Assembly: GCA_017408585.1 (NCBI GenBank)
Contig: JAFQUJ010000017.1
Coordinates: forward strand, 124,001-188,000
Source: Clostridia bacterium
Lineage (GTDB): Bacteria > Bacillota > Clostridia > Oscillospirales > CAG-272
DNA length: 64,000 bases
Reading direction: 5' to 3'
Shown here: positions 25,575-44,995 of the stretch, piece after piece
How the letters are laid out: every line of letters starts with the position of its first letter
How positions within the stretch are numbered: position 1 is the first letter of the stretch
Notes under the pieces: model-generated
Told to the model about the DNA's origin: nothing
The model's input: the letters and a program-made list of their open reading frames with translations, nothing else
Databases searched by the model: none
Program-made: the position numbers and the translations under genes

Positions 25575-25848
25575 GCAACGCAGAACGAAGCTATCAACAA
25601 CCGTTTCGAGCGTTTAGAGAAAGTTGTGCTAGGCTCTACTACTGCCACGGGCGATAGCGTACTAAGGCGTACGCTGAAGTCGAGGTAGTAGTTAGTAACG
25701 ACGCAGAACGACGCTATCAACAACCGTTTCAAGCGTTTAGAGCAAGTTGTGCTAGGCTCTGTGAGTCCTACGGGCGAAGGTGTATTTTATACATCGAGGT
25801 CGTAGGACGAGCTAGTAACGACGCAGAACGACGCTATCAACGCTTGAA
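25575..25848 (+). repeat. Two tandem copies of a structured element with conserved internal loop
   Basis: Two units of about 130 bp lie directly after the infB stop. Copy 2: outer stem GTCCTACG (25765-25772) / CGTAGGAC (25801-25808), inner stem GTGTAT (25780-25785) / ATACAT (25789-25794), internal loop GGCGAAG opposite CGAGGT. Copy 1: outer CTACTAC (25636-25642) / GTAGTAG (25685-25691), inner AGCGTAC (25656-25662) / GTACGCT (25669-25675), with a larger loop. Flanks such as CGCAGAACGACGCTATCAAC are shared. Confidence 0.85.
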
Positions 25849-25849
25849 A

Positions 25850-28531
25850 TTAGCGTGAAACCTCTTCTAGAACAAAGGCCTCAAGTATATCCCCTTCCTT
25901 TATGTCGTTAAACTTATCAAGTCCTACGCCACATTCGTAGCCGGCGGCCACTTCCTTGACATCGTCCTTGAAACGACGAAGAGATGATATTTTGTCCTCA
26001 AATATAACTATACCGTCACGGATAACACGAATTTGTGATTGACGGGTTACCTTACCGTCTTGAACATAACAGCCGGCGATTGTTCCAACATTTGGAACGC
26101 GGATTGTTTGTCTTACCTCGGCGTGACCGTTGATTACTTCCTTATAGGTTGGTGCAAGCATACCCTTCATGGCAGCTTCCATTTCCTCTATAATTTCGTA
26201 GATAATTCTGTGTGTTCTTATATCAACATTTTGTCTTGCGGCAGAGTCGATTGCACTCTTGTCGGGACGAACATTAAAGCCTACAATAATCGCATTAGAT
26301 GCTGCAGCGAGCATAACATCGCTCTCTGTAATTCCACCAACACCCATATGAATTACATTTACCTTAACCTCTTCGTTTGATAGCTTAACAAGTGATGCCT
26401 TAACTGCCTCGGCACTACCACCAACATCAGCCTTAACGATAACATTGATTTCTTGTGCGCCCTCGTTGATTTGTGCAAAGAGGTCATCAAGGTTAACCTT
26501 AGCATTTGCCTTGAATACCTCTTCTCTTGCCTTGGTCTTTCTTTGCTCCGCCAGCTCTCTTGCCATTCTTTCGTCCTCAACGGCATTAAACTCGTCACCT
26601 GCCATTGGAACTTCGGCTAGACCTATAATTTCTACTGCCTTACTTGGTCCTGCGCTCTTAACTATCTTTCCTGTATGGTCGGTCATAGCTCTTACATGGC
26701 CTACCGCTGTGCCTGCGATAACAACATCTCCACTATTAAGCGTACCATTTTGAACGAGAACTGTTGCAACAGGTCCACGGCCTCTATCAAGCTTAGCCTC
26801 GATAACGATACCCTTAGCGCGTCTGTTAGGATTTGCCTTTAGCTCCTTAACCTCAGCTACGAGAAGGATTGTTTCAAGTAGGTCATCAAGACCCATTCTG
26901 GTTTTTGCAGATACAGGAACGCAGATTACATCACCACCCCATTCCTCAGGAACGAGGTCATATTGTGTGAGCTCCTGCTTAATTGCCTCCGGATTTGCGG
27001 TTGGCTTATCCATTTTATTAATTGCTACGATAATATCGACGCCTGCTGCCTTTGCGTGATTGATTGCCTCGATTGTTTGTGGCATAATTCCGTCATCGGC
27101 TGCGACTACGATGATTGCGATATCGGTTGCCATAGCTCCACGCAGACGCATAGCTGTGAACGCCTCGTGACCGGGGGTATCAAGGAAGGTGATTGGCTTT
27201 TCATTGATAACAACGCTATATGCACCGATATGCTGTGTAATTCCACCAGCCTCGCCGGCGGTAACATTTGCATCTCTTATTGCGTCAAGAACAGAGGTTT
27301 TACCATGGTCAACATGTCCCATTACGCAGACAACGGGAGCTCTCTCCTCGAGCGAGCTTGCATCGTCCTCTGTTTCGTCAAACAGACGCTCCTCGATTGT
27401 GACAACAACCTCTTTTGTTACCTTAACGCCAAGCTCGTCAGCGATAAGATATGCTGTATCATAGTCAACCACTTGGTTTACGCTTGCCATAACGCCCATA
27501 AGCATAAGGCGCTTGATAACCTCGCTTGATGTAACCTTTAATCTTGTAGCAAGCTCACCAACTGTGATTTCGTCGGGAACTGTGATTGAGAGCTGTGTCT
27601 TTTTAGCCTTCTCAAACGCCTCGCGCTTAGTTCTTTCAAGAGCTAGGCGCTCTCTTTCTCTCTTGCTTGGGCGTCCGTTTGTACCACCCTCCTGTGAACG
27701 ATTGTTCTGCTTTTTAAGCTTTTGCTTGCCGGGGGTGTAGTTATCGTATGTGCCATAATCGGTTGTGTCATCATATCTTGAATGGTCAAAGCTTCCACTG
27801 CCTCTTGTATCAACTACACGAGTTGTACCGGTCTTTTTCTTAACCTCGACAACAACGGGACCGTTATTTTGAGGACGGCCGTTGTTATTTGGAGCACCAT
27901 TCTCTCTTTTTGGAGCACCCTGTGGCTGTCTTTGGTCATTTCTTTGGTTATTTCTTTGACCATCGCTTCTTTGAGGTGCGCCATTGTTATTTCTTTGATT
28001 ATTGCCTTGACGCTCGCCACGATTATCGTTTCTTTGCTCGCCTCTTGGCTGATTGTTTCCTTGTCTTTGTGGCTGTGATTGTGGCTGGCGTCTTTCAGCC
28101 TCTGCTCTAGCTCTCGCTTCAGCCTCTGCTCTTGCCCTTGCCTCTGCCTCAGCTCTTGCCCTTGCTTCAGCCTCAGCCTTAGCTCTTTCCTCAGCCTCAA
28201 TTCTTGCCCTCTCCTCAGCCTCGGCTCTAGCTCTTGCCTCTGCCTCAGCCTTTGCCTTAGCTTCAGCCTCTGCCTTTGCTCTTGCCTCTGCCTCGGGGTC
28301 TTTTCTTGGCTTGCCCTGTGGAACGCTTGTTTTCTTTGCAAGATACGCCTCAATGCTTACATTATCACATAGGGTTGTGAGATAGTTTGCGATAGCGTTT
28401 GCTGTTGCAAGCTCGAGAGTGTCAGCGCTTGCGCCCTTTTCAATTCCACAAGCCTCAAAAAGCTCGGGAATGTCCTTTATATCTATTCCAAAGTTCTTTG
28501 CGAAATCCTTAACCTTTATTACATTTGCCAT
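25850..28531 (-). CDS. infB: Translation initiation factor IF-2
   Basis: An 893-residue GTPase that places initiator tRNA on the ribosome. Residues 1-50 are the IF-2 N-terminal helical domain. A long low-complexity region follows, first Ala/Glu/Arg repeats ([18 protein letters not shown]), then Arg/Asn/Gln-rich sequence, as in many Clostridia. The GTPase core has [17 protein letters not shown] (G1), DTPGHEAF (G3) and INKMDKP (G4). The C-terminal domains include [20 protein letters not shown]. It is the last gene of rimP-nusA-rnpM-ylxQ-infB. The Ala/Glu region creates long antisense open frames that are not genes. Confidence 0.97.
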
Positions 28532-28536
28532 ATCAG

Positions 28537-28866
28537 TTACCTCGTTTCCTCGTTTGTTGTTCGGTGTAGCCTCAAAAGCTCACCTGCAAAATTTTTATCG
28601 ACTATGCCAAGCGCGCAAAGTGCACCGCTTTTGCCAATCGCGCTCGAAAGCTCGCTTGACGAAAAGCCTACCTTGATACATTCTACATTGTAAAATTTGC
28701 ATTTGTCTGTAATTTTCTTCTCGGTGTTGCCCGATGCGTCATTTGCGTAAAAAACAATCTTAACCTTGCCCTTTGGGAGTGCCTCTGTCACCATAGGAGT
28801 TCCGATTATTAACGCGCCTGCCTTGCGACACAAGCCAAGCATTGATAAAAATTTGTTCACTTGCAT
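28537..28866 (-). CDS. ylxQ: Ribosomal L7Ae-like RNA-binding protein (YlxQ)
   Basis: A 109-residue L7Ae/L30e-fold protein. The opening [20 protein letters not shown] is the typical YlxQ start, and [19 protein letters not shown] corresponds to the central strand-helix. The family binds kink-turn RNA, and in Bacillota it sits between ylxR and infB. It overlaps the end of rnpM (28857-28866) and ends 5 bp before infB, so translation is probably coupled. Confidence 0.88.
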
Positions 28867-29117
28867 AGCTCCTTTGATAGCTCGAGAAGAAGCTCCTCGC
28901 TAATTTGCGCCTCAAGATTTGTTTGAAGTCTTTTAGCCTTTACTGCCTTTTTAAGACACGCCTCGTTTCTGCAAATATATGCGCCTCTGCCTGATTTTTT
29001 GCCTGTCAAGTCTATACATATCTCGCCCTCGGGAGTGCGTACAACTCGTATAAGCTCCTTCTTGGGAAATGACTGCATACAGCCAAGGCATCTTCTTTGC
29101 GGTATCTTCTTTTCCAT
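28857..29117 (-). CDS. rnpM: YlxR-family protein (RNase P modulator RnpM)
   Basis: An 86-residue protein of DUF448. The hallmark motif RRCLGCMQSFPKKELIRVVR begins near residue 6, followed by KSGRGAYICRNEACLKKAVK. The family binds RNA; in Bacillus subtilis the homologue was found to modulate RNase P. ATG 29117 has AAGGAGG six bases upstream, while the ATG at 29123 is too close to it. The gene overlaps ylxQ by 10 bp. Confidence 0.88.
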   Translation of the reverse strand: MEKKIPQRRCLGCMQSFPKKELIRVVRTPEGEICIDLTGKKSGRGAYICRNEACLKKAVKAKRLQTNLEAQISEELLLELSKELCK

Positions 29118-29167
29118 GAGCATCCTCCTTGCTATTTTTTGAATTTATGCTATGAGCATGTAATAGG

Positions 29168-30232
29168 TTACTCGCTCTTTATGTCTATTTTATATCCTGT
29201 AAGTCTTGCGGCAAGACGGGCATTTTGTCCTTGCTTACCGATTGCCAAGGATAGCTGATCTGCGCTAACGATTACTCTTGCGCTACGCTCATTCTCAATA
29301 TCAACGCTGATAACGGTTGCGGGAAGAAGCGCGCTCTTGATGTACTCATATGGATCATCGTTATATGGGATAACATCAATCTTTTCGCCATTTAGCTCGT
29401 TTACAACTGCGTTTATTCTTGAACCACGATTTCCAATGCAAGCGCCAACTGCGTCAACGCTTGGATCTCTTGAATATACAGCAATCTTTGTTCTTGAGCC
29501 TGCCTCACGGCATACATTTTTAATAACAACTGTTCCCTCTTGAATTTCAGGAACTTCTGCCTCAAACAGACGCTTAACTAGGTCGGGGTGAAGTCTTGTA
29601 AGTGATACAACAGGGCCCTTATCGCCTGAATTTACTTGGAGAGCGTAAACCTTAATTCTGTCGTCAACACGAAGAACCTCGCCCGGAATTTGCTCACTCT
29701 TCAAAAGAACTGCCTGTGAAATGCCTGTATCTACAACAACATTTCCTGTTGAGTCCTCAACTCTTACGACGATAGCGGACATTATCTCGCCCTTCTTTTC
29801 CTCGTACTCTCTTACCTGTCTTAGCTTTTCAAACTCTCTTATAGCTTGAATAATTACCTGCTTTGCGTTTTGAGCGCTTAGACGACGGAACGCCTTGGTT
29901 TGTAGCTCGTACTCGTAATCTGCGCCTATGCTACGCTTTCTTGAACGGGTCTTATGCTTAATTCCCGCAGCCTTTCTCTCAGCCTCAAGCGCCTCGATTT
30001 GCTCCTTTGTGATTTCTGTGTTAGGGTCTTCAACAAAGGCTACAATCTTGTACTTGCGGTAAACCTTGATATCTCTTTTATCAGGATCAATAACTACGGT
30101 GATTTCAGCTGCACCGTACTCCTTCTTACAAGCTGCCGCAAGCGCTGCCTGTACCTTTTCAATCATATACTCTCTTGGAATGTGTCTTTCTCTTTCGAGG
30201 ATTTCAAGAGCCTCAAAAAATTCGTTGTTCAT
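29168..30232 (-). CDS. nusA: Transcription termination/antitermination factor NusA
   Basis: A 354-residue RNA polymerase-binding protein. The N-terminal domain (MNNEFFEALEILERERHIPR) contacts polymerase. The S1 domain follows near residues 135-200 and then two KH domains (GACIGNRGSRINAVVNELNG and LAIGKQGQNARLAARLTGYK). Length is normal for Gram-positive NusA, which lacks the acidic repeats of E. coli. It promotes pausing and intrinsic termination. A hairpin with T-run in the operon leader offers a route to autoregulation. Confidence 0.96.
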   Translation of the reverse strand: MNNEFFEALEILERERHIPREYMIEKVQAALAAACKKEYGAAEITVVIDPDKRDIKVYRKYKIVAFVEDPNTEITKEQIEALEAERKAAGIKHKTRSRKRSIGADYEYELQTKAFRRLSAQNAKQVIIQAIREFEKLRQVREYEEKKGEIMSAIVVRVEDSTGNVVVDTGISQAVLLKSEQIPGEVLRVDDRIKVYALQVNSGDKGPVVSLTRLHPDLVKRLFEAEVPEIQEGTVVIKNVCREAGSRTKIAVYSRDPSVDAVGACIGNRGSRINAVVNELNGEKIDVIPYNDDPYEYIKSALLPATVISVDIENERSARVIVSADQLSLAIGKQGQNARLAARLTGYKIDIKSE

Positions 30233-30249
30233 TTTTATTCTCCTTTTAT

Positions 30250-30711
30250 TTAAAATTCAAAATATATATTCATTTTTGCGATTGCTTTTCGTGGGATTTC
30301 GATATCCTCGTCACAATTTACGACGATTTTCTCGCTATCGTATGACACGAGCGTGCCAACTATCGCCTTTTGACCATTTATTGGTGCATAAAGCCTTGCA
30401 ATTACCACCTCGCCAATACAGCACTCCAGATGGAAATCTGTTTTTATCACTCTTTCTATTCCCGGTGAGGAAATGTCAAGGTGATATTCGTCCTTGATTG
30501 GATCTGCCTCGTCAAGCACGGGGTCGATTGCGCGTGACATTTTCTCGCAGTCCTCAATGCCGATTCCGTTTTCACTGTCAATTGTTATTGTCAGGTGATA
30601 CTCTGCGCCGATTTTTTCGTATTCAACATCCCAAATGATATATCCGAGCTCCTCGGCGATGGGCGTTGCAAGCGCTGTAACCTCGCTGACAATGCTTTTC
30701 GATGATTTCAT
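30250..30711 (-). CDS. rimP: Ribosome maturation factor RimP
   Basis: A 153-residue protein needed for assembly of the 30S subunit. Motifs are YIIWDVEYEKIGAEYHLTIT, then EDCEKMSRAIDPVLDEADP and YHLDISSPGIERVIKTDFHL, the last being the most conserved in the family. It is the first gene of the nusA-infB operon. GGAGGTG precedes the ATG at 30711, and nusA follows after 17 bp. Confidence 0.95.
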   Translation of the reverse strand: MKSSKSIVSEVTALATPIAEELGYIIWDVEYEKIGAEYHLTITIDSENGIGIEDCEKMSRAIDPVLDEADPIKDEYHLDISSPGIERVIKTDFHLECCIGEVVIARLYAPINGQKAIVGTLVSYDSEKIVVNCDEDIEIPRKAIAKMNIYFEF

Positions 30712-30749
30712 TTTTCACCTCCGAAAAATCTTAATCCTAGCAAAATAAA

Positions 30750-30773
30750 ATCTGCGAAGGGGGCTTCGCAGAT
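30750..30773 (-). terminator. Attenuator-like hairpin in the rimP-infB leader
   Basis: A perfect 10-bp stem (ATCTGCGAAG / CTTCGCAGAT, loop of four C on the minus strand) is followed at once by TTTATTTTG. It lies between the promoter and the rimP start. A partly complementary AATAGTATTG..ACTAT stretch precedes it and could influence folding. Confidence 0.75.
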
Positions 30774-30797
30774 AGTAACAATACTATTATTGTGGCT

Positions 30798-30826
30798 ATT
30801 ATAGCACACCAAATTCAAAATTGCAA
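30798..30826 (-). promoter_or_regulatory. Promoter of the rimP-nusA-infB operon
   Basis: TTGCAA (30821-30826), 17 bp ending TGTGC, TATAAT (30798-30803) on the minus strand. Confidence 0.8.
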
Positions 30827-30866
30827 TAGTTTTTTTATTTTTTTTGAAAAAATATAATATATATAG

Positions 30867-30895
30867 TTTACAAAACAAAATATTTGTGCTAAAAT
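30867..30895 (+). promoter_or_regulatory. Promoter of the CPBP protease-cysS operon
   Basis: TTTACA (30867-30872), 17 bp ending TGTGC, TAAAAT (30890-30895). Confidence 0.8.
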
Positions 30896-30928
30896 AGGTT
30901 GACAACTTCTAAAAAGCTAGGAGGATTT

Positions 30929-31756
30929 ATGAGCAAGGATAGAATTAATGGCGCTCTTACATCTATTTTAAAGGCTGCGGCGTTTTTTGGTATTTATTTC
31001 TTGTCGCAGGTGGTTGCCATTATCGCTTTCGTTTTTATTTTTGCCTTTATTGAGGCGTTTAAGGGTGTAACGGACATAAATGCGATTGCAAGCGTTTTGC
31101 TTGAAAAGACAATGGAGCTTACAATTATCTCAAATGTCATCGCAGTTATAGGCTGTATCGTTTTACTGATTTGGTTTAGAACCGAGGACGATGGTCTTGC
31201 TGAAAAGCTTGATTTTCGCCTTGAATTTGACAATATGTGGAAGGTTATCGGCTTTTCGCTCGCGCTTGGCGTGTTCGGTCAGCTTGCAATCTCGCTTATT
31301 TTAAATATCATTCCCTTCCCTGCGAGCTGGATTGAAATGCAAAATCAAAGCGCAGATATTATTATAAGCAGTCCGCTTTTCATTCAAATAATCGGTGTTG
31401 CCATTATGGCGCCTCTTGCCGAGGAGATTATATTTAGAGCCTGTATTCAAGGCACGCTTGAGCGTGGACTTCCCGCCTGGGCATCAATTCTTATCACATC
31501 TGTTATTTTTGGTCTTATGCACGGAACACCTATTTCATTTATTTATGCGACCACGCTAGGTATTCTTATGGGCTGGCTATATCACGCATTCAAGTCAATT
31601 GTTCCGTCAATGCTATTCCACTTCGGCTTTAACACGCTTTCTCTGTTCTTATCAGAGGACACTCCACTCTTTTTCTTTATCGCATCGTTTGTGGTGTTCG
31701 GCGTGTGCCTTGGCTTTTTGATTTATTACAGCATTAAAAATCGCGATTATTATTAA
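30929..31756 (+). CDS. CPBP-family intramembrane metalloprotease
   Basis: A 275-residue membrane protein of the Abi/CAAX-protease family with about eight hydrophobic segments. The two key motifs are EExxxR, seen as APLAEEIIFRACIQG, and the later histidine in FGLMHGTP; a third histidine is in SMLFHFGFN. Members cleave within or near the membrane, and some protect against bacteriocins. The substrate is unknown. ATG 30929 follows AGGAGG. The cysS gene starts 11 bp after the stop, so the two share a transcript. Confidence 0.88.
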   Translation: MSKDRINGALTSILKAAAFFGIYFLSQVVAIIAFVFIFAFIEAFKGVTDINAIASVLLEKTMELTIISNVIAVIGCIVLLIWFRTEDDGLAEKLDFRLEFDNMWKVIGFSLALGVFGQLAISLILNIIPFPASWIEMQNQSADIIISSPLFIQIIGVAIMAPLAEEIIFRACIQGTLERGLPAWASILITSVIFGLMHGTPISFIYATTLGILMGWLYHAFKSIVPSMLFHFGFNTLSLFLSEDTPLFFFIASFVVFGVCLGFLIYYSIKNRDYY

Positions 31757-31767
31757 GGAGAAATACA

Positions 31768-33180
31768 ATGAAGCTTTATAACACACTTACAAAAACCGTT
31801 GAAGAGTTTATTCCAAGAGAGGCAGGCAAGGTTAAAATGTACACCTGTGGCCCTACCGTTTACCACTTTGCGCACATTGGAAATCTTCGCACATATATGA
31901 TGGAGGATGTTCTCGAAAAGGCTCTCCGCTATGCCGGCTATGAGGTTTTAAGAGTTATGAACATCACCGATGTTGGTCACCTTTCAAGCGATGGTGACAC
32001 AGGTGAGGACAAGATGCTACTCGGTGCTAAGCGTGAGAAAAAGACCGTTTTGGAGATTGCAGAATTTTACAAGAACGCATTTTTTAGCGATTGCGAGAAG
32101 CTAAACATTAAGACTCCCGATATCGTTGAGGGTGCAACTCAATGTATTCCCGAATTCATAAAGACCATTGAGGGTCTTCTCGAAAAGGGCTTTGCGTATG
32201 TTGCTGATGGTAATGTTTACTTTGACACCTCTAAGGTTCAGGACTATTACGCTCTCACAGGTCATTCAAGCGAGGAGCTGATGGTTGGCGTTCGTGACGA
32301 CGTAACAGAGGACCAAAGCAAGAAAAACAAGAGTGATTTCGTTCTTTGGTTTACTAAGTCTAAGTTTGACGACCAAGAGCTTAAGTGGGACAGCCCTTGG
32401 GGCGTTGGCTACCCCGGCTGGCACATTGAATGCTCATGCATTAGCATGAAGCATTGTGGCGAGTATCTCGATATTCACTGTGGTGGCGTTGACAACATCT
32501 TCCCTCACCATACAAACGAGATTGCTCAAAGCGAGGCATATCTCGGTCACAAGTGGTGCAATTACTGGTTCCACATTCACCATCTAAACGACGAAACAGG
32601 AAAAATGTCGAAGTCCAAGGGTGAGTTCTTGACCGTTTCCCTGCTTGAAAGCAAGGGCTATGACCCTCTCGTTTACCGTTTCTTCTGCCTACAATCTCAT
32701 TACAGAAAGCCTCTCGTTTTCTCATATGAAGCGCTAGACCAAGCAAGTGCGACCTTTAACAAGCTTCTTGGCAGAATTGCAAGGCTTAGTCGCGACGGAG
32801 AGGTTGATTGCGATTTTGTTAAGGCTAACAGAGAGCGTTTCCTCGGTGCTATTGGAAACGACCTTAACACTGCTCTTGCGATAACTAACATTTATGATAT
32901 TTTGAAGGCTAACACAAACGATGCAACAAAGCTTGCTTGTCTTGCTGATATTGACAGCGTTCTTAGCCTAAATCTTGTAAGAGATACAGAGGAAAAGGCT
33001 GAGGGTGTGGCTGAAAAGACTGCACTTGAGTTGGAAATTGAGGCTCTTATCGCTGAAAGAGCTGAGGCGAAGAAATCGAGAAATTTTGCCCGTGCTGACC
33101 AGATAAGAGATGAGCTTAAGGCTCGTGGAATTACCCTTGTTGATACTCGTGAGGGCACTACCTACACAATCGACAATTAA
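31768..33180 (+). CDS. cysS: Cysteinyl-tRNA synthetase
   Basis: A 470-residue class I aminoacyl-tRNA synthetase that charges tRNA-Cys. The opening MKLYNTLTKTVEEF and CGPTVYHFAHIGNLRTY hold the zinc-binding cysteine and the HIGH-type motif. WHIECSCISMKHCGEYLDIH supplies the other zinc ligands, and GKMSKSKGEF is the KMSKS loop. The C-terminal part (KARGITLVDTREGTTY) is complete. AAGGAGAAAT precedes the ATG at 31768. Confidence 0.96.
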   Translation: MKLYNTLTKTVEEFIPREAGKVKMYTCGPTVYHFAHIGNLRTYMMEDVLEKALRYAGYEVLRVMNITDVGHLSSDGDTGEDKMLLGAKREKKTVLEIAEFYKNAFFSDCEKLNIKTPDIVEGATQCIPEFIKTIEGLLEKGFAYVADGNVYFDTSKVQDYYALTGHSSEELMVGVRDDVTEDQSKKNKSDFVLWFTKSKFDDQELKWDSPWGVGYPGWHIECSCISMKHCGEYLDIHCGGVDNIFPHHTNEIAQSEAYLGHKWCNYWFHIHHLNDETGKMSKSKGEFLTVSLLESKGYDPLVYRFFCLQSHYRKPLVFSYEALDQASATFNKLLGRIARLSRDGEVDCDFVKANRERFLGAIGNDLNTALAITNIYDILKANTNDATKLACLADIDSVLSLNLVRDTEEKAEGVAEKTALELEIEALIAERAEAKKSRNFARADQIRDELKARGITLVDTREGTTYTIDN

Positions 33181-33186
33181 TAAATT

Positions 33187-33211
33187 ATTGGTCGGCGCTT
33201 TGCCGACCAAT
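33187..33211 (+). terminator. Hairpin after cysS
   Basis: ATTGGTCGGC / GCCGACCAAT with a five-base loop lies 6 bp after the cysS stop. The T-run behind it is weak (TCTTATG), so termination may be partial and the small gene at 33261 may be reached by read-through. Confidence 0.65.
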
Positions 33212-33260
33212 CTTATGAATAGACCATTTATCTTAACACATTCAATCAAAGGAGCGTGCC

Positions 33261-33437: not shown

Positions 33438-33457
33438 CGGGGCGGGCGAGCGCCCGA

Positions 33458-33665
33458 GGCAACTTCCGCGTTAATTTTGCTTTAATTTAATAAAACTCAC
33501 GAAGCAATTTTATTCACTCCGCACTTCGCACTCCGCATTCCGCACTTGCGAAGCACCGCATTCCGCACTGCGACTCCCTTCGGTCGCTTGCATGGCTACC
33601 ACCAGCCAATCGTTCTTCACTTCGCTTGAACTCTTGGGGTGTACGCACATCCGCATTCCTCATTC
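33458..33665 (+). repeat. Dispersed element, full copy
   Basis: About 200 bp, also present at 50253-50455: TTCCGCGTTAATTTTGCTTT, then AATTTAATAAAACTCACGAAG, reiterated GCACTCCGCATTCC, GCGACTCCCTTCGGTCGC, GCTACCACCAGCCAATCG and a closing CATCCGCATTC. It has no coding capacity. It lies between the DUF6472-like gene and dusB. Confidence 0.85.
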
Positions 33666-33702
33666 CTCATTCCACATTTCGCATTCACTTTGGGGGTATA
33701 TT

Positions 33703-34683: not shown

Positions 34684-34688
34684 GCATT

Positions 34689-35981: not shown

Positions 35982-36096
35982 TAATATTTTACAATTTTAT
36001 AATATATTTTTTAAAAATATTTTAAATATTATATAAAATAAGTAATTTTTAGGCTATTTTTGCTAAAAATCAAGGCTGTGTTATGTCAAGGCTTTA

Positions 36097-36732: not shown

Positions 36733-36740
36733 TTTACACC

Positions 36741-37433
36741 TCATAGGAAGAATTTCTTTTTAAGTGATTGACGAAGTGGCTTGCAAATCGCAATTATTAT
36801 GAGCATCATACCGATAATAAACATTGAAATAAGTGGGTAAATGCTCCAAACAAATTTTATTGCTCCGTCAAAGGTTTTGCTAATTAGCATTTCAAGAAGC
36901 ACTGCAAATGCGCCAACTGCAATAAATGCTCCACCATATATATAAAGCACTCCTCGCTTGGTGTATCTTCTAAGCGCTACAATTGCAGTTGTGATTATTG
37001 CTACAACTCCAACTGCGGGGAATGCAAACGGCATAAACCAGCCACCCTGTGTTTCTAAATCGATATATAACAGATATACAAGCGCTCCGACAAAGTCACA
37101 CGGAACAAAGATTACGGGGTTGGGGTGTCTAAACCAGAATGGAAGTGCTACGATTATATATGCGAGCGCAATTGCGCCCATAGCATAGCCCGACCAAAGA
37201 ACCCTTCCGTTAATTGACAAATCACACACAAGGCTCAAAACCAGTGGTATTGCAAATATCATTGTTATAATGAACATAAGCCCCTTTAGCTCAAATTTGT
37301 CGTGTGGCGTGTTGTCCCTTGGGTAAGTTTGCTCGCCATCAGAGATAAGGTCGGGGTGATACACCTTTGTTTGACACAAGGGGCATTCCGTTTGTCCGTT
37401 TGATAGCTCTACTCCACATTTTACACAATACAT
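36741..37433 (-). CDS. Zinc-ribbon membrane protein (DUF6320-like)
   Basis: A 230-residue protein. Residues 3-24 form a zinc ribbon (CVKCGVELSNGQTECPLC). About six membrane spans follow, from GLMFIITMIFAIPLVLSLVC to ISMFIIGMMLIIIAICKPLR. The pattern and the location beside a condensation/acetyltransferase gene match what I recall as DUF6320, whose members often pair with such enzymes. Its function is unknown. It starts 3 bp after the stop of the fusion gene and ends 8 bp before the LUD gene, so all three are co-transcribed. Confidence 0.75.
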   Translation of the reverse strand: MYCVKCGVELSNGQTECPLCQTKVYHPDLISDGEQTYPRDNTPHDKFELKGLMFIITMIFAIPLVLSLVCDLSINGRVLWSGYAMGAIALAYIIVALPFWFRHPNPVIFVPCDFVGALVYLLYIDLETQGGWFMPFAFPAVGVVAIITTAIVALRRYTKRGVLYIYGGAFIAVGAFAVLLEMLISKTFDGAIKFVWSIYPLISMFIIGMMLIIIAICKPLRQSLKKKFFL

Positions 37434-37436
37434 AGC

Positions 37437-39668
37437 CTACTCCTTTCTGCTGTTAGATTCGACACAGGGTCGTATATTTTCGCCCTTTAATACCTCGTAT
37501 AGCGCTCTTTCGAGCAAGGGCTCTTTAATGTTTCTTATGATGTTTAGATATGCCTTGCCATCATAGGTTATAAGTCCCGTGTTATAAGGTGCAGATGCCT
37601 GCACGCCCAGAACAAAGTCCATTCTCTTAACATGGCTCGCCATCTCCTCGGGGAGCTTAACTACTCCTAGATTTGACAGCGTAAAGCAGGACGCCTTCTC
37701 GCCTACCGCATTGAATATCAGCTTCATTACGATATTCTTTAAGAACAGAGGCGCAAGCTTCAAAATCATCATTTTTTCGCTCTCAACATTTGTCGAAATG
37801 CGTGAGCTTAACTGCTTTTCGGTATTCAAAAGCGTCATTTGAGATGAGAAAATCCTGCATAGCTCATCAAGCGAATACTCACCGAGCCTCGGGTCAACTC
37901 CGGGGGACACATAGAACACGAAATTACGCAAGGTTTTTGAGTTGTATATTTTTCTTAGGTTTACAGGGATTAGTATTTTTACAGGCTTTCGCCTTTTGGG
38001 GTTTTTCACCTTTATTTGTTGCAAATTCAAACACGCCTTCGCCAAAATGGCCGATAAATAGATGGTTACGGTAACGCCATGGCTCTTCGCCTTAGCGTAA
38101 AGCTCATCACTATCAAATATAAAGGTTGTGTTTGTACGGAAACCGTTTTCCTCGGGCGTTCCCGTAAGCTTAAAGGCAGCCGAATCGCTACGAGATGCGT
38201 GCACGGGGCTACTTATCCTCATAAAAGAATCCTCTAGCTCCTCGGGGCTTGGCTCTTCAAGAGAGTCAAGTATTCCGTCGCCTGTTGGAATTCCAATTCC
38301 GTGCTTTAGCTTTAAATATTCAGCCACCAGCGTTTTAAGGAATATCAGTCCACCATTACCATCTGTTAGTGCGTGGAAGAACTCAACGGCTATTCTCTTT
38401 TTATAAACGATTACACGGAATGCGCATTTTCGTATATCGTCAAACGCCATTCTCGACAAGGGATATGCCCTTTCCTCCATTATCGGTGGAGCCTTTGGCA
38501 CTTCCTCAATATAATACCAGAACATACCCGTTTTAAGTCTAACTGCAATTGACGGAAATCGTCTTGCGACAATGTCGAGCGCAACCGATAGGCACGCCCT
38601 ATCAACATCCTCGTCAAGCGTTGCGCTAAGGCGGAATACATTGCTCCAATTTCTGCGCCTTGCAGCAGGATAAATCTTTGCAGAGTTATCGAGCGCCAGC
38701 CAGCGAAGCTTCTTGCGATATGGTGTTGTAACCCTTAAAAACGCAATAATTTCCTTAAAGGCGCTATCTGACTCCTTCAAGTTATAAAGAGGATACGCGT
38801 GCCACATTTTTGGGGCAACAAGCAATCTGCTTCTCGCTCCGTGTGACAAAAGCGCCTCGTTTAGTCTAACCGAGTCGTCAAGCATTACCTCGTCACCACC
38901 CACCAAAATAAGTGACGGTGGCATTCCCTCAAGGTCAGCAAATATTGGTGATGCAAGTGGATTTGACTTTATTCTTATATCCTCTATGGCGTCACCTATG
39001 CATCTTGGCACAATTTTTCCATCTCCGTCAAGCGCGCCATGCATATAGCAATCGGCAAAGAGCTTTAATCTCTCATAGGTGATTGAAGGATCGTTTTTCT
39101 TGTTTACCTTATAGCTCTCGCCCGATAGAGTAAGGTCAGTCCATGGGGATATCGCAATAATTCCCGCAGGCAAGCTCTCACCATTCTCCTTTATTTTTAG
39201 GCAAAGCGAGTAGCAAAGGCCACCACCTGCGCTCTCTCCGCACAAAACTATTTTATCGGGAGTGTGTCCTAGTGATATAACATACTCGTATGCGCTATAT
39301 GAGTCGTCAATTGCACACGGGAAGGTATGCTCGGGCGCTAGACGATATGCAGGAGCATACACCACACAGCCAAGCCTTGACGCAAGCGTTGTCGCAAAGC
39401 CCTTGGCATATGAAATTTCGCCACAGGTGTAGCCACCACCATGAAGGTAGATAATTATAGTGTCGCTCAAAATATCGTTTGGCGTAATTTGCGCCATATT
39501 AAGCTCACCTAGACGAATCTCGGTTGCTTTTACGCGCTTTGAGCCCTTCGAGGCAATAATTTTGCCGATACGCTCCTGCCATTTTCTCATTCTTTCAAGA
39601 GAAAATCCGTTAGCTACAGAGTTTATCATGGCAAGCTGTGATCTCATGAACTTCGCTGATAGCTTCAT
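37437..39668 (-). CDS. Fusion of alpha/beta hydrolase and condensation-type acyltransferase
   Basis: A 743-residue two-domain protein. Residues 1-315 are a hormone-sensitive-lipase-type alpha/beta hydrolase: HGGG at 76-79 (oxyanion hole), GESAGGG at 144-150 with Ser146, and GGDEVMLDD near 258 with His290 (MWHAYPL) completing the triad. Residues 320-743 resemble a condensation/alcohol-acetyltransferase domain with an HxxxDG motif at 432-437 (FHALTDGNGG). Together they suggest formation and cleavage of an ester on one substrate, for example a lipid or polyketide-like product. The product is unknown. It leads an operon with the zinc-ribbon membrane protein and the LUD protein. Confidence 0.82.
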   Translation of the reverse strand: MKLSAKFMRSQLAMINSVANGFSLERMRKWQERIGKIIASKGSKRVKATEIRLGELNMAQITPNDILSDTIIIYLHGGGYTCGEISYAKGFATTLASRLGCVVYAPAYRLAPEHTFPCAIDDSYSAYEYVISLGHTPDKIVLCGESAGGGLCYSLCLKIKENGESLPAGIIAISPWTDLTLSGESYKVNKKNDPSITYERLKLFADCYMHGALDGDGKIVPRCIGDAIEDIRIKSNPLASPIFADLEGMPPSLILVGGDEVMLDDSVRLNEALLSHGARSRLLVAPKMWHAYPLYNLKESDSAFKEIIAFLRVTTPYRKKLRWLALDNSAKIYPAARRRNWSNVFRLSATLDEDVDRACLSVALDIVARRFPSIAVRLKTGMFWYYIEEVPKAPPIMEERAYPLSRMAFDDIRKCAFRVIVYKKRIAVEFFHALTDGNGGLIFLKTLVAEYLKLKHGIGIPTGDGILDSLEEPSPEELEDSFMRISSPVHASRSDSAAFKLTGTPEENGFRTNTTFIFDSDELYAKAKSHGVTVTIYLSAILAKACLNLQQIKVKNPKRRKPVKILIPVNLRKIYNSKTLRNFVFYVSPGVDPRLGEYSLDELCRIFSSQMTLLNTEKQLSSRISTNVESEKMMILKLAPLFLKNIVMKLIFNAVGEKASCFTLSNLGVVKLPEEMASHVKRMDFVLGVQASAPYNTGLITYDGKAYLNIIRNIKEPLLERALYEVLKGENIRPCVESNSRKE

Positions 39669-39771
39669 TTTGCACTCTCCCTTCTTGCTTTTTGCCTAGC
39701 AACAGCAAATTTGCACCCCTTTGCTATCGCCATGATAGTGCGCAAAATTGCTTTCCGGTCTTATCTTATAT

Positions 39772-39800
39772 ATTTTACCATAGTACGCGCAAATAATCAA
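39772..39800 (-). promoter_or_regulatory. Promoter of the hydrolase-acyltransferase operon
   Basis: TTGATT (39795-39800), 17 bp, TAAAAT (39772-39777) on the minus strand. The rest of the gap 39669-40192 holds the upstream region of the next gene and several near-palindromes, but no gene that I can support. Confidence 0.7.
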
Positions 39801-40192
39801 TATATTTTTCGCTGTGCGTCTGCTTTTTATTCATTTCAATATATTTTCAAATGTTCATATATTTGTTTTGGCGTTTTCACTCCCACAGGATTGCGGGGTG
39901 TTATTATGACGATTTTTTGCCATAATTATGGAGCTTGTCCCCCGAAAATCGCCACCAAAATGCCTTTTTTCACTATCATTCCCCCACGCATGAACGATTG
40001 TTCATTCAATAATATAAATGTAACTTTGCAAAAAAATCGCAATTTTTCGCAAATTTTTTTAAAAAATATGCATTTTGTCAAGCGAATTTATCGTTTTGAT
40101 AATGCAACAAGCGAAAGTTTGTTGTAAAATATAATTATAAGTGAGAAAATATCATAGAGAGAAAACATTATTTCAAAAAACAGGAGAGTTTT

Positions 40193-40474
40193 ATGATTGC
40201 CGACAAAATCAAGCTTTTAAGAGAAAAGGCTGGCATCACTCAAGCAGAGCTCGCAAGACGACTTGGCGTTACACGCTCCGGAATGAATGCGTGGGAAATG
40301 GGAATTTCCGAGCCATCTACCAAATATGTTTCGAAGCTCGCCACTCTTTTTAAGGTTTCGACAGACTTTTTACTTGATATGCCACAAACAAAGTCCATCA
40401 GCGTCGAGGGACTAAGCGACAGAGAGGTTGCCTCTATTGTGGAAATTATTGATTGCTATAAGAGCAAAAGATGA
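40193..40474 (+). CDS. XRE-family HTH regulator
   Basis: A 93-residue protein. Residues 1-62 are a Cro/C1-type helix-turn-helix domain (IKLLREKAGITQAELARRLG, then VTRSGMNAWEMGISEPSTKY). The rest is a short acidic/helical tail (LSDREVASIVEIIDCYKSK) that may aid dimerisation. It stands alone with its own promoter and terminator and a possible operator of its own: CAACA..TTTGTTG inverted repeat near 40105-40124. AGGAGAG precedes the ATG. Confidence 0.88.
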   Translation: MIADKIKLLREKAGITQAELARRLGVTRSGMNAWEMGISEPSTKYVSKLATLFKVSTDFLLDMPQTKSISVEGLSDREVASIVEIIDCYKSKR

Positions 40475-40498
40475 AAAGAGCCAAAATGGCTCTTTTTG
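40475..40498 (+). terminator. Terminator of the XRE gene
   Basis: AAAGAGCC / GGCTCTTT with a five-base loop then TTT, just after the stop codon. Confidence 0.85.
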
Positions 40499-40545
40499 CT
40501 TTGTATAGGAATTCACACATATGTTATAGGGTTATAATATAAAAG

Positions 40546-40573
40546 AAAAGCGAGCGAAATTTCGCTCGCTTTT
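40546..40573 (-). terminator. Terminator of the metY-metA operon
   Basis: A perfect palindrome (AAAAGCGAGCGAAA / TTTCGCTCGCTTTT) lies just after the metA stop. It is followed by CTTTTATATT on the minus strand. Confidence 0.85.
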
Positions 40574-40576
40574 AGC

Positions 40577-41515
40577 TTATTCTTCCTCGTTTGGCTTGAT
40601 TTGAATTTTACTTCTATCGTATGGGGTTACCTGATATACATAGTAGTTAAGCCAGTTTGAGTAAATCATGTTTGCCGTCGAGAACCAATTTGGAATTACA
40701 AGCGTGTTCGCTACATTTCTAAAATAGTTCTTTGGTGGGTCGATTTGAAGTCCCTTCAAAAGATCTCTTTCGTATTCACCCCTCAAGGTGTCACGGTCAT
40801 ATTCCATGTGGCCCATGAAATAGAACTGTCTTCCATCAATTGAGCGCGCAATCGACACGCCAACCTCGTCGCTTCCCGCAAGAATAATAAGGTCATCCTT
40901 CGCCTTTTCAAACTCGTCAACAGGGATTGTTGTGTGGCGAGAGTGGGGCATAAAGAATTCCTCGTCTGTACCCTTTAAAATTGGGTCGAAAAGAACATAT
41001 TTTCTGTGTGGGAAAACGCCAAAAAGCTTTCTGTCAAGAGACGCCTTGTTCATTCCATAATAGTAATGAAGCGCCGCCTGTGCGCCCCAACAAATGAAAA
41101 TCGTGCTTTGAACATTGGTTTTGGCGTAATCGAGAATCTCAGTTAGCTCCTGCCAATATTTTACATCCTCAAATTCCATTTGTTCAACCGGTGCGCCCGT
41201 GATTATCATACCGTCAAAGCGCTCGTTTTTAACCTCGTTGAAGGTCTTGTAAAAGCGTTGAAGGTGTTGTAGTGGCGTATTTTTTCCAATATAGGTTTCT
41301 GTTCCTATAAGAGTTACCTTGATTTGAAGCGGAGAGTTAGAAAGAAGCCTTATCAGCTGTGTTTCCGTTTCAATTTTTGTGGGCATCAAATTCAAAATTG
41401 CAATCTCGATTGGACGAATGTCCTGTGAGGCAGCCCTTTCGTGATTCATAACGAAAATGTTTTCCTGCGACAAGGTTGAATACGCAGGAATGTCCTGCGG
41501 AATTATAATTGGCAT
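40577..41515 (-). CDS. metA: Homoserine O-acetyltransferase (MetA type)
   Basis: A 312-residue enzyme of the MetA/HTS family that activates homoserine for methionine synthesis. Catalytic Cys142 lies in IFICWGAQ, and the His235-x-Glu237 pair in FMGHMEYDRD. Residue 111, in ITGAPVEQMEF, is glutamate. In Bacillus cereus MetA a glutamate here was linked to acetyl-CoA use, while glycine at the equivalent place in the E. coli type goes with succinyl-CoA. The linked metY supports the acetyl route. It is the second gene of the metY-metA operon, 32 bp after metY. Confidence 0.93.
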   Translation of the reverse strand: MPIIIPQDIPAYSTLSQENIFVMNHERAASQDIRPIEIAILNLMPTKIETETQLIRLLSNSPLQIKVTLIGTETYIGKNTPLQHLQRFYKTFNEVKNERFDGMIITGAPVEQMEFEDVKYWQELTEILDYAKTNVQSTIFICWGAQAALHYYYGMNKASLDRKLFGVFPHRKYVLFDPILKGTDEEFFMPHSRHTTIPVDEFEKAKDDLIILAGSDEVGVSIARSIDGRQFYFMGHMEYDRDTLRGEYERDLLKGLQIDPPKNYFRNVANTLVIPNWFSTANMIYSNWLNYYVYQVTPYDRSKIQIKPNEEE

Positions 41516-41547
41516 AAATTCTAACCTCCTTTGCCGAAATTTGTTAT

Positions 41548-42816
41548 TTAAATGCTTTCCAGAGCATTTTTTATATCTGCAATAATGTCGTCCACATTCT
41601 CAATACCGACGCTTAGACGAATTAGATTGTCTGCTATTCCAATTGCCTCAAGGTCTGCCTTTGAGAGCTGACGGTGGGTTGTTGATGCAGGGTGAAGAAC
41701 GCATGAGCGTGCGTCAGCTACATGTGTTACTATCTTTATCATTTTTAGCTTTTCCATAAAGAGCGCTGCCTTTTCGCTTCCTCCCTTAACGCCAAAGCTC
41801 ATCATACCGCCCATTCCGTCGGGGAGATACTTTTTAGCGAGTGCGTAGTAGGGGTCACTCTCAAGGCTTGGGTGCTTGACCCACTCAACCATATCGTTCT
41901 CGGAGAGGAATTTTGCAACCTTTTGTGCGTTTTGGCTGTGTCTTTCCATACGGAGAGCAAGCGTTTCCATGCCGAGATTGGTCAAGAATGCGTTTTGTGG
42001 GCTCATGATTGCGCCCATATCTCTCATCATTTGAACTCTGCACTTAACGCCAAAGGCTGTTTTGCCAAGGGTCGAGTAAACGAGTCCGTGATAGCTCTCG
42101 TCGGGAACGAGGAATTCCTCGTATCTGTTTGTTGCGGTGAAGTCGAAGTTTCCGCCATCGACGATACAGCCACCGAGGGCTACTGCATGGCCATCAAGAT
42201 ATTTTGATGATGAGTAAAGAACAACATTAGCACCAAACTCCAAGGGGCGACAAAGAACAGGTGTGACAAGAGTGTTGTCAACCATGAAGAGCACCTTGTG
42301 CTTTTTAGCGATTTGAGCGATTTTGTCGAAATCGAGCACTACGATGGTAGGGTTTGCAAGAGTTTCTGCAAAGATTACCTTTGTTTTTTCGTCAACGAGC
42401 GCCTCGATGTTCTCTTGGGTGTCGTCGGGATCGAAAAATCTGCACTCAATTCCATATTTTTTAAGAGTTATTGAAAATAGATTGTATGTTCCACCATAGA
42501 TTGCGCGCGCAGAAACGATATTGTCGCCTGCGTTGCAAACATTGAGAACTGCAAGCAAGGTTGCGCTCATGCCTGACGCACAGGCGATAGCACAAGAGCC
42601 ACCATCAAGGGCGCAAAGCTTGTTCTCAAATGCGGAAACGGTTGGGTTGGCAAGACGAGTATAGAAATATCCGTCAGCCTTTAAATCGAATAGGTCAGCA
42701 AGACCCGATGCAGTGTCGTATGCATAGGTTGTGCTTTGAACAATCGGCACAACTCTTGGCTCGCCATTCTTTGGCTCGTAGCCTGCTTGCACGCATAAAG
42801 TGTCTAGTTTTGACAT
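41548..42816 (-). CDS. metY: O-acetylhomoserine sulfhydrylase (MetY)
   Basis: A 422-residue PLP enzyme of the Cys/Met metabolism family. It joins O-acetylhomoserine with sulfide to give homocysteine. Typical motifs are GYFYTRLANPTVSAFENKLC near the N-terminus, CASGMSATLLAVL, and VLYSSSKYLDGHAVALGG with the PLP lysine. RLSVGIENVDDIIADI closes the protein. Length fits the MetY subgroup better than the shorter cystathionine gamma-synthases, and metA is next in the operon. ATG 42816 follows GAAGGTG; an upstream GTG is less likely. Confidence 0.9.
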   Translation of the reverse strand: MSKLDTLCVQAGYEPKNGEPRVVPIVQSTTYAYDTASGLADLFDLKADGYFYTRLANPTVSAFENKLCALDGGSCAIACASGMSATLLAVLNVCNAGDNIVSARAIYGGTYNLFSITLKKYGIECRFFDPDDTQENIEALVDEKTKVIFAETLANPTIVVLDFDKIAQIAKKHKVLFMVDNTLVTPVLCRPLEFGANVVLYSSSKYLDGHAVALGGCIVDGGNFDFTATNRYEEFLVPDESYHGLVYSTLGKTAFGVKCRVQMMRDMGAIMSPQNAFLTNLGMETLALRMERHSQNAQKVAKFLSENDMVEWVKHPSLESDPYYALAKKYLPDGMGGMMSFGVKGGSEKAALFMEKLKMIKIVTHVADARSCVLHPASTTHRQLSKADLEAIGIADNLIRLSVGIENVDDIIADIKNALESI

Positions 42817-42879
42817 AATTTTCACCTTCTAAAATAAAGTTTTAAAATCCACTATGTTCAGGAATTTAGAAACAAATTA

Positions 42880-42962
42880 GGCAAGGCGCACCGCACATTG
42901 CGGGCGAAGATGTACTTTTCGTACATCAAGGTCGCAATGCAGGAGCAACGATGCATAATGCA
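42880..42962 (+). repeat. Structured element with conserved internal loop (copy 5)
   Basis: Outer stem CATTGCG (42896-42902) / CGCAATG (42933-42939). Inner stem ATGTAC (42910-42915) / GTACAT (42921-42926). Internal loop GGCGAAG opposite CAAGGT. Flanks GGCAAGGCGCACC and GGAGCAACGATGC match the copy at 44.9 kb. It lies just after the stop of the UPF0210 gene. Confidence 0.85.
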
Positions 42963-42967
42963 GTTTA

Positions 42968-44326
42968 TCAATTCCTCAACGAGTGAATTGGCGCGGGAAT
43001 TCGTCCACCCCTGTTAATAAACTCCTCGCTTGAGTATTTATTTAGTGGCATAATCGGTGCGTGACCGAGAAGTCCGCCAAATTCAACGCTTTCGCCTACA
43101 TCCTTACCGATTACGGGGATTAGACGAACAGCGGTGGTCTTATTATTAATTACGCCTATGGCAATTTCGTCGGCAATAATTCCGCTAAGAGTTGATGCGC
43201 TTGTATCTCCCGGGACTGCAATCATGTCAAGTCCTACGGAGCAAACCGCGGTCATTGCCTCCAGCTTTTCTATTGTGAGCGCACCACACTCAGCTGCGCT
43301 TATCATGCCTGCGTCCTCAGATACGGGAATGAATGCACCACTAAGTCCACCTACATGGCTTGATGCCATAACGCCACCCTTTTTAACTGCATCGTTTAGC
43401 ATTGCAAGGGCTGCGGTTGTGCCATGTGTGCCACATTTTTCAAGACCCATATTTTCAAGAATGTGAGCCACGCTATCACCAACTGCAGGAGTTGGAGCAA
43501 GTGACAAATCTATAATTCCATATGGTGTGTTTAGGCGTCTTGATGCCTCGTATGCAATAAGCTGACCTACTCTTGTAATCTTGAAGGCTGTCTTCTTGAT
43601 TACATCGGCTAGGCGTGAGAAGTCGCAATAGCCCTCACGCTTGATGGCTGATGCTACAACACCCGGTCCACTGACGCCTACATTGATTACTGTGTCACTC
43701 TCGCCCATTCCGTGCATAGCGCCTGCCATGAATGGATTATCCTCGGGAATGTTGGCAAATACTACAAGCTTTGCACAGCCAATTGAGTCTTGGTCCTGTG
43801 TCAAGATTGCAGTTTGACGCATAATCTCGCCCATGCGCTTTACTGCGTCCATGTTAATGCCTGCCTTTGTTGAGGCTACATTCACGCTTGAGCATACCTT
43901 TGTTGTGGTCGCAAGCGCCTCGGGAATTGCCTCGATAAGAGCGCTAGCGCCTCTTGTCATTCCCTTTTGAACGAGCGCTCCAAAGCCACCGATAAAGTTA
44001 ATTCCAAGCTCGTTTGCAGCCCTTTCAAGCACGCCCGCCAGACGCACATATTCATCCGGGCCAAAGTCAGCGCCAACAAGCGAAATCGGTGTTACGCTTA
44101 CTCGCTTGTTGATGATTGGAATACCATATGTGTGCTCAAGGTCAAGCGCAGTCTTAACAAGGTCGCGTGCGCTTTTTGTGATTTTGTCATAAATTTTTGT
44201 TTCAAGACGAGCTCTGTCGTCGCTTATGCAGTCGAGAAGCGAGATACCCATAGTTATCGTACGAATATCAAGATTCTCCTGCTTTATCATGTTTATAGTT
44301 TCAAGAATATCGTTTGTGTTAAGCAT
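42968..44326 (-). CDS. UPF0210/DUF711 (PFL-like) family protein
   Basis: A 452-residue protein, the usual length for DUF711/UPF0210. Recognisable segments are [19 protein letters not shown] near residue 20, [16 protein letters not shown] near 218, [19 protein letters not shown] and [20 protein letters not shown] near the C-terminus. The family is related in fold to glycyl-radical enzymes but lacks a proven activity. It lies 8 bp after an ACT-domain gene, a pairing conserved in many Bacillota, which suggests amino-acid sensing. Confidence 0.9.
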
Positions 44327-44334
44327 TTTTCACC

Positions 44335-44604
44335 TCATATGCGGTGCATTGTGTTAAAAATGTCCTCATGCATTACTCTTATGTCGAGGTTTTTCTGCAC
44401 TCCAACAGCCTCAAGCTCCTTTTGGAAGCTCATAAAGGTTGATGACATATTGTCAATCTCAACGAGCATGATCATCGCAAAATAATCTTGAATAACGCTT
44501 TGTGTAATATCTACGATATTAACGCCAAACTTTGCGCATTCAGCGCTTACCGTGGCAATAATGCCTACACTGTCTTTTCCAATTACTGTAATTACTGCTT
44601 TCAT
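44335..44604 (-). CDS. ACT-domain protein (UPF0237)
   Basis: An 89-residue protein made of one ACT domain. MKAVITVIGKDSVGIIATVS, then AECAKFGVNIVDITQSVIQD, follows the beta-alpha-beta start, and YFAMIMLVEIDN the later strands. ACT domains bind small ligands, mostly amino acids. It precedes the UPF0210 gene by 8 bp in one operon. Confidence 0.92.
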   Translation of the reverse strand: MKAVITVIGKDSVGIIATVSAECAKFGVNIVDITQSVIQDYFAMIMLVEIDNMSSTFMSFQKELEAVGVQKNLDIRVMHEDIFNTMHRI

Positions 44605-44615
44605 AATATATGCCT

Positions 44616-44670
44616 TTCTCGCACTTTTTCTTTAAGAGAAGAAAAAGTGCGCAAAAAGAAACTAAACTGT
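44616..44670 (+). repeat. A-rich hairpin repeat, related to 12856-13089
   Basis: GCACTTTTTCTT pairs with AAGAAAAAGTGC, followed by GCAAAAAGAAACTAAAC. The same layout (stem, then GCAAAAAGAAA) occurs in the copies near 12.9 kb. It sits upstream of the ACT gene. Confidence 0.7.
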
Positions 44671-44769
44671 GAAATTATTTGTTTTTCGTGATTTTGCTCA
44701 CGCTTGATAGTCAAGAAGCTGTATTTCGCACAACATTCTTGCGGTTTTCGGGCATTCAGGCGGTGAAAG

Positions 44770-44995
44770 ACAAGGCTCTGCTTTTTCTGCGGACGATGGC
44801 TATCTTGCGATAGTCGAGGTCGCAGGAAAAGGTAGTAACGCAGGATTTCGACAGCATCAATGCTCGAAAATTAGCCACCGAGACTCGTTTGGGTGGATAG
44901 GAGCAAGTTGTTCAAGGCGCACCACAGCCGACAGGCGAAGGCTATCACTTGATAGTCGAGGTTGTCGGCGAGGAGCAACGAGGAAGAACGATGCT
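44770..44995 (+). repeat. Two structured elements with conserved internal loop (copies 3 and 4)
   Basis: Copy 3: outer CTTTTTCTGCG (44781-44791) / CGCAGGAAAAG (44821-44831), inner GCTATC (44799-44804) / GATAGT (44809-44814), loop GACGATG opposite CGAGGT. Copy 4: outer GCCGACA (44927-44933) / TGTCGGC (44963-44969), inner GCTATC (44941-44946) / GATAGT (44951-44956), loop GGCGAAG opposite CGAGGT. Copy 4 abuts the livF stop. The gap 44671-44769 holds nothing else that I recognise. Confidence 0.85.

Follow-up and report, generated by a model that had tools for sequence, protein, structure and literature searches.

The DNA analyzed here is a window of 64,000 nucleotides (nt) from a Clostridia bacterium of the order Oscillospirales (assembly GCA_017408585.1, contig JAFQUJ010000017.1, positions 124,001 to 188,000; positions below are those of the window). 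Five copies of a hairpin element lie in it behind the 3' ends of three minus-strand genes: infB, a DUF711 (UPF0210) gene and the gene of an ABC transporter ATPase, which is presumably livF, as it had been named in a first-pass annotation (Table 1). That annotation, made from the letters of the DNA, had described hairpins at these five places and after these gene ends. Both descriptions proved correct in a sequence check, and the cores found with a covariance model overlapped all five hairpins.

Table 1. Coordinates of the hairpin copies, their outer arms and the associated genes.
Feature	Location	Strand	Remarks
Copy 1, degenerate	25599..25728	+	core 25631-25691; outer stem 6/8 paired
Copy 2, whole element	25727..25849	+	core 25754-25811; proximal to infB; outer arms 11/11 paired
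Copy 2, outer arms	25727-25737 and 25839-25849	+	TTTCAAGCGTT and AACGCTTGAAA; far arm abuts infB stop codon
infB, translation initiation factor IF-2	25850..28531	-	stop codon abuts copy 2
Copy 5	42856..42980	+	core 42884-42943; outer arms 42856-42866 and 42970-42980 (far arm, within the DUF711/UPF0210 gene end); 10/11 paired
DUF711 (UPF0210) gene	42968..44326	-	gene end forms copy 5 far arm
Copy 3	44745..44870	+	core 44773-44831; outer arms 44745-44756 and 44859-44870; 11/12 paired
Copy 4	44888..45010	+	core 44915-44973; outer arms 44888-44899 and 44999-45010 (far arm, final codons of the livF-type gene, YLGG stop); 10/12 paired, best register
ABC transporter ATPase	44998..45708	-	Pfam ABC_tran only; gene end forms copy 4 far arm
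REP-associated tyrosine transposase gene, genome G008	L240 1459-1971	-	NCBIfam NF047646, 170 residues

The hairpins described at first are real, yet the whole element is about twice as long and has a further outer stem. The covariance model, with a core of 59 positions, was built from five copies, four of them in the window and one elsewhere on the same contig. The common layout proposed in the annotation held for the four window copies that are themselves seeds of the model (70.6-74.2 bits), and copy 1, which is tandem to copy 2 at 123 bp start-to-start, was a poorer member (37.5 bits). This layout was redefined as an 8-bp outer stem, the loop GGCGAW (replaced by GACGAT in one window copy), a 7-bp inner stem and an apical loop of 3-5 nt, with RAGGT on the opposite side; within it the internal loops are constant, as had been reported. 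The fold has also been kept while the sequence of the stems was lost: among the five copies 94.4% of the cells were paired and 11 of 15 pairs were changed on both sides, counts that were each matched by 0 of 500 shuffles, and slid partners gave 1-4 pairs. The RNA folding z-scores of the copies on the plus strand were -2.4 to -5.5.

No named RNA had been recognised in the element, and a search of the whole window against Rfam agreed, with 0 matches at gathering scores. At E values up to 5 there were 0 matches in 25550-25860 and 17 sub-threshold matches in 44500-45000, mostly to another hairpin at 44600-44680; a sub-threshold match to sR53 lay over copy 4 (E 0.99; 13.7 bits, where the gathering score is 49). 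A coding explanation was rejected: one frame yields short peptides, and it is broken by the apical loops, which measure 3, 4 or 5 nt. With regard to an intrinsic terminator, an informal check by eye showed no T-run after the hairpin in the copies inspected.

Range and fold of the hairpin family

In the genome that holds the window (G000; 1.48 Mb, 69% complete) the covariance model gave 30 matches at an E cut-off of up to 1, the weakest with E 1.7e-4. The survey comprised 57 genomes: 29 of the same genus (G000 included), 5 from the same family but other genera and 23 more from the order. Matches were obtained in 25 of the 29 genomes of the genus, at 1 to 30 copies each, and the window hairpins are members of one family, as had been proposed. 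None of the 5 genomes from other genera was matched, and a borderline match in 1 of the 23 others (E 0.012, 28 bases) is probably due to chance. A strict exact pattern, which misses divergent members, found 27 stretches in 84,980 species genomes, all of them in Oscillospiraceae or Clostridia metagenome assemblies, and 0 matches in viral contigs. In the collections searched the family is limited to one genus, which we take to be a group of uncultured gut bacteria. The first-pass annotation had called for this search of the genome and its relatives, naming as adverse outcomes an absence of further copies, a lack of covariation or a match to a known repeat; copies proved numerous, covariation was strong and no match to anything known turned up. 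The one-genus range, the tandem arrays and the match of the outer arm to gene ends lay beyond its view.

The tandem arrays have a unit length of ~122-125 bp, and near-identical copies occur at distant places (L030 and L031; C19:35924 and C19:86814). Together with copy numbers of 1-30 per genome, these arrays and distant copies indicate spread by copying. L030 and L031 also share an additional repeat (GAACCCCCGAAGC...) in the left arm of both. A phage or plasmid carrier was considered and dismissed, a distant search with the copy at 44890-45000 having given no phage or plasmid match. In the open-licence literature, no description of the family was found among the matches listed.

The fold was derived from an alignment of 19 copies picked for clean spacing out of 174 distinct copies, which were extracted from the listed matches and are a sample, not all copies in the 29 genomes. 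The whole element of ~125 nt is a rod of six helices: the outer stem X (9-11 bp), S4, S3, S1b, S1 and S2. Over 38 pairs, one of which (columns 54-100) never pairs and is a register error, 88.4% of the cells were paired and 31 pairs were changed on both sides. The pairing score was 0.649, compared with 0.081-0.135 for slid partners. The sequence kept in >85% of 170 copies includes AGGCG, CGA, AGGT and CAAC.

Outer arms and host gene ends

An open reading frame (ORF) lay to the right in 158 of the 171 copies with enough flank, and in 140 of these 158 it was on the opposite strand, pointing at the element. The stop codon was at most 45 nt from the core in 91 of the 107 arrays with a usable ORF (115 arrays in total), with peaks at 21, 30 and 36 nt; the remaining 16 arrays had mostly short or doubtful ORFs. 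The gene-side arm of the outer stem is often coding sequence. When the register was fixed, at least 7 of 9 outer pairs were formed in 110 of 166 copies, compared with 11.7% of shuffled partners; with windows placed too far outward the values were 6.23 against 5.32, and with corrected windows 6.98 against 5.44. Free local alignment of the arms showed little contrast (own 7.22, control 6.51), with 12 of 166 copies exceeding the 95% control level.

By a simple similarity rule, 65 of the 90 arrays with an assigned gene fell into 20 same-gene groups across genomes. The arm score, out of 9, was 7.74 for the own gene end (65), 6.05 for the orthologue elsewhere (210) and 5.50 for unrelated ends, and within the 20 groups the own arm scored higher than the orthologue arm in 18, equal in 1 and lower in 1. 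On average, the arms fit each genome's own gene end. Single sites were inspected for two genes. Of 24 livF-type orthologues, 23 end in KAYLGG and one in KDYLGG; the site is occupied in G000, G009 and G027, and that of G007 resembles, by eye, a deletion remnant. In a strict scan, the exact inverted copy of the gene end was 11 nt long for G027 and 8 nt long for G007, compared with 4-7 at 20 empty sites. At UPF0210, 22 of 30 loci were, by eye, without a repeat between the stop codon and the start of the next gene. Copies of the gene end were also seen by eye after some elements, which bears on target duplication, with an overall contrast that is weak (8.13 against 6.95).

The sister genomes G023 and G011 carry the same array (L115 and L131) with two unit types, whose order next to the gene differs; the units each bring their own stop codon and arms, and some outer arms are unmatched. 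In this array the outer arm moves along with the unit, and whether an arm is copied from the gene or carried in with the unit appears to differ between sites. Cores at the same gene were not more alike (identity 0.597) than cores elsewhere (0.612), from which it follows that cores turn over or that insertions recur. Copy pairs with 1-2 loop differences had on average 3.1-4.0 double Watson-Crick changes and 1.3-1.7 single changes.

Short palindrome arrays of other kinds were observed by eye directly after stop codons elsewhere in the genus, at the infB and UPF0210 ends L205, L202, L174, L148 and L173. In the palindromes of the five L loci the stems differ and the spacer is constant (ATATCGA, AGTGATATT, AATTTACCT, TGAATTG). 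The first short palindrome in G006 is, by eye, an inverted copy of the infB end.

Tolerated pairs and the nature of the element

The first-pass annotation had offered RNA and single-stranded DNA as alternatives for the molecule in which the fold is kept, and the pairs that are tolerated favour DNA. In 170 of the 174 copies (4 were dropped for short flanks or odd length), 20 core pairs were counted, with pair 69-86, mostly G-T, excluded; this gave 2827 Watson-Crick, 89 G-T, 73 A-C and 280 other pairs. The control was the RNase P RNA of the same genus (27 genomes; 28 matched, one partial sequence removed), with a consensus fold predicted from its own alignment, a bias toward pairs; it gave 2543 Watson-Crick, 346 G-T, 9 A-C and 10 other pairs. 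The share of G-T was thus 3.1% in the hairpin family and 12.0% in RNase P RNA. A G-T:A-C ratio of 89:73 alongside 280 other mismatches is about what random decay would produce. Stem S3, which is absent from the search model, had a G-T:A-C ratio of 9:10 in the copies where 5 or more of its 6 pairs were Watson-Crick; stem S1 gave 13:4 with 49 others in the copies where 6 or more of 7 were. The covariation expected of a structured RNA is present, but the tolerance of G-U pairs is not. Because G-U pairs would be frequent if the fold were kept as RNA and show no excess, we conclude with moderate confidence that the pairing of the hairpin is maintained at the DNA level. Covariation is the standard proof of a functional RNA structure, and here it is strong without the G-U pairs that RNA allows. 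Comparing the G-U share with an RNA control from the same genus provides a simple test that separates DNA hairpins from RNAs in motif searches.

The foremost alternative, though an unlikely one, is a functional RNA, either a structured 3' untranslated element of the upstream messenger RNA or an antisense RNA. The stop and last codons would then be locked in a long hairpin, which would delay the release of ribosomes or shield the message, and the copies would have spread by duplication with the RNA fold kept by selection. The short distance to the stop codon, the retention at the same genes over several species, the arms matched to their own gene ends and two positions of fixed wobble pairs agree with such a role. 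Outside these two positions there is no G-U excess, against 346:9 in RNase P RNA, and the fixed wobbles are on the strand antisense to the gene. Further, Rfam has no match in the window, and the genes checked with Pfam (infB, DUF711 and the ABC ATPase) are without obvious common function.

We favour, at a probability of roughly 0.5, a non-coding palindromic repeat that is or was mobile as DNA, is recognised as a folded hairpin and has its arms matched at the DNA level. It starts from what is observed, namely a family that the searched collections show in one genus only, a fold of six helices, copies placed behind genes in one orientation, arms that on average fit the gene end of their own genome and the lack of a G-U excess; the mobility, the folded-strand recognition, an enzyme and the cause of the arm matching are what we infer from them. 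Members of the repeat would have been mobile as DNA at least once. An enzyme may recognise the folded DNA hairpin by its constant internal loops and fixed mismatches, which would serve as marks, while the stems would need only complementarity. New copies would insert directly after stop codons, all facing the same way, and amplify on the spot into tandem arrays, and the outermost stem would be formed together with the end of the host gene. Either selection in favour of a Watson-Crick hairpin or template switching in replication, in which one arm is copied from the other, may keep the arms complementary. The family offers a natural case of a repeat that tracks changes in the last codons of its neighbour gene, in which selection and template switching are testable. 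A bolder version, which we hold to be doubtful, is a self-templating mobile hairpin that is recognised by shape and builds its outer stem by inverted copying of the gene end, with DNA-level copying keeping the drifting stems complementary. If true, it would turn host codons into parts of the element, and its covariation would mimic that of an RNA.

Several observations weigh against a mobile repeat. No transposase, integrase or retron was tied to the whole family, among the enzyme families searched in the 29 genomes. The occupied genes are shared by distant species (the 20 groups with 65 of 90 arrays), and the occupancy of infB, scored by eye, is explained by 3 changes in a tree with 27 genomes (G009 and G006, with short sequences, are omitted), with 0 of 500 shuffles as low, so that there the repeat is largely inherited. 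Retention over so long a time may point to a role for the host. The strict scan of single sites was mixed for livF-type and UPF0210 and weakens both the favoured and the self-templating readings: the occupied livF-type sites of G000 and G009 scored just 6, within the range of the empty sites, and at UPF0210 G000 scored 8, G009 6 and G007 5, with 10 and 11 in two of 27 others. The genomes examined included no very close strain with a clean empty site. The two wobble positions favour G-T on the plus strand (69-86, G-T 97 and A-C 0; 21-134, G-T 44 and A-C 12), which would fit RNA or a strand-specific protein contact. Finally, the 15 same-locus pairs among 60 listed had 25 single and 4 double changes; local duplicates are thus mostly singly changed, and the correction of arms is not fast.

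Template switching could also act without any enzyme of the element: the nascent strand of the polymerase would fold back, copy the gene end inverted and overwrite later mismatches in the arms. We find this similarly doubtful. It would account for Watson-Crick stems of free sequence, for the coding ends of G027 and G007 that recur as exact inverted copies and for the other variable-palindrome arrays after stop codons in the genus, and in the copy-rich genomes G000 and G016 neither Y1 nor REP-type transposase nor reverse transcriptase was found. Homogenisation of inverted-repeat arms by template switching has been described (PMC8604942). Overwriting should also affect the internal loops, which are instead the part that varies least; recent local duplicates mostly carry single, uncorrected changes, and the dispersal to distant genes is left unexplained.

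The window contains other repeats. A 202-nt repeat is present at 33456-33657 and 50248-50449 (92% identity), and its GTGCGGAATGCGG-type motifs are also found near 25539-25560. A tandem repeat of ~117 bp with 3-4 copies (identity 94-100%) occupies 3229-3633, and numerous 69-bp repeats at 6123-7577 lie within an ORF on the minus strand (5974-8409) that probably encodes a repeat protein.

Candidate enzymes and known repeat systems

Candidate engines were sought in the 29 genomes of the genus, among which G000 and G016 are the richest in copies. Y1 transposases, in 12 of 29 genomes, were found in neither of these two and are not supported as the engine, nor are reverse transcriptases (3 of 29; none found in G000 or G016) and integron integrases (TIGR02249 above cut-off in 0 of 29). 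No REP-type transposase was found in G000 (69% complete) or G016; the insertion sequence partners searched for were of the Y1 and REP types. REP-associated tyrosine transposases (RAYT) act on folded single strands, and a REP-like element moved by such an enzyme is improbable. It is suggested by G008, in which three of the 27 copies are located between infB and a transposase gene (Table 1) whose product passes the REP_Tyr_transpos cut-off (86.2 against 80 bits). Relatives of this protein occur in 14 of 29 genomes, but searches of G000 and G016 yielded none; the genomes with the protein have a median of 2.5 copies of the element, and those without it a median of 9. Full copies were found at G008 only among the 12 REP-type loci searched, one other having a partial match of 17.8 bits, and a second REP-type protein that was examined, from G010, is under the cut-off with 71.3 bits.

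The attC sites of integrons are single-strand hairpins after stop codons, with little sequence conservation and fixed unpaired marks. The hairpin family appears to resemble them in its place after the stop codon, its single orientation, its variable stems and its fixed unpaired marks. That it is an attC-like site of an integron integrase encoded elsewhere is nevertheless very improbable: no such integrase was above cut-off in the 29 genomes, and no cassette arrangement was seen at the genes checked.

IS1272 uses inverted repeats, some of them near gene 3' ends, as insertion targets (PMC5678879). IS1272 encodes its own transposase, and its insertion replaces the repeat that was the target, whereas the hairpin element is too short for a transposase, and none of the 20 empty livF sites scores above 7 when scanned for inverted copies. 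Miniature inverted-repeat transposable elements would have constant terminal inverted repeats shared with an insertion sequence; the terminal arms of the hairpin element are inverted repeats whose sequence differs from copy to copy. REPs are palindromic and extragenic, lie beside gene ends, measure 20-40 bp and have constant tags, and GTAG REPs often supply the stop codon (PMC3733652). The hairpin family is like the GTAG and CGTC families of REPs in being palindromic, extragenic and at gene ends, and a REP-type transposase gene adjoins the G008 array. It differs from them in its size (~125 nt, the core alone having 59 positions), in the lack of a constant GTAG or CGTC foot in the invariant columns of the 19-copy alignment and in the copy-rich genomes G000 and G016, in which the REP-type transposase was not found.

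ERIC (127 bp) and YPAL (~168 bp) are non-coding imperfect palindromes in intergenic positions; ERIC is co-transcribed with its neighbours, and the targets of YPAL span or adjoin dyad symmetry (PMC2229807). Like YPAL/RU-2 and ERIC of Yersinia and enterobacteria, the hairpin family is a non-coding imperfect palindrome of 100-200 bp that is present in many copies beside and between genes, a likeness of description and not of compared sequences. It belongs to another phylum and differs in its freely varying paired stems, in the match of its arm to the gene end and in a stop codon mostly within 45 nt. The family is best read as a variant within the broad class of small palindromic repeats of the ERIC, YPAL and REP kind.

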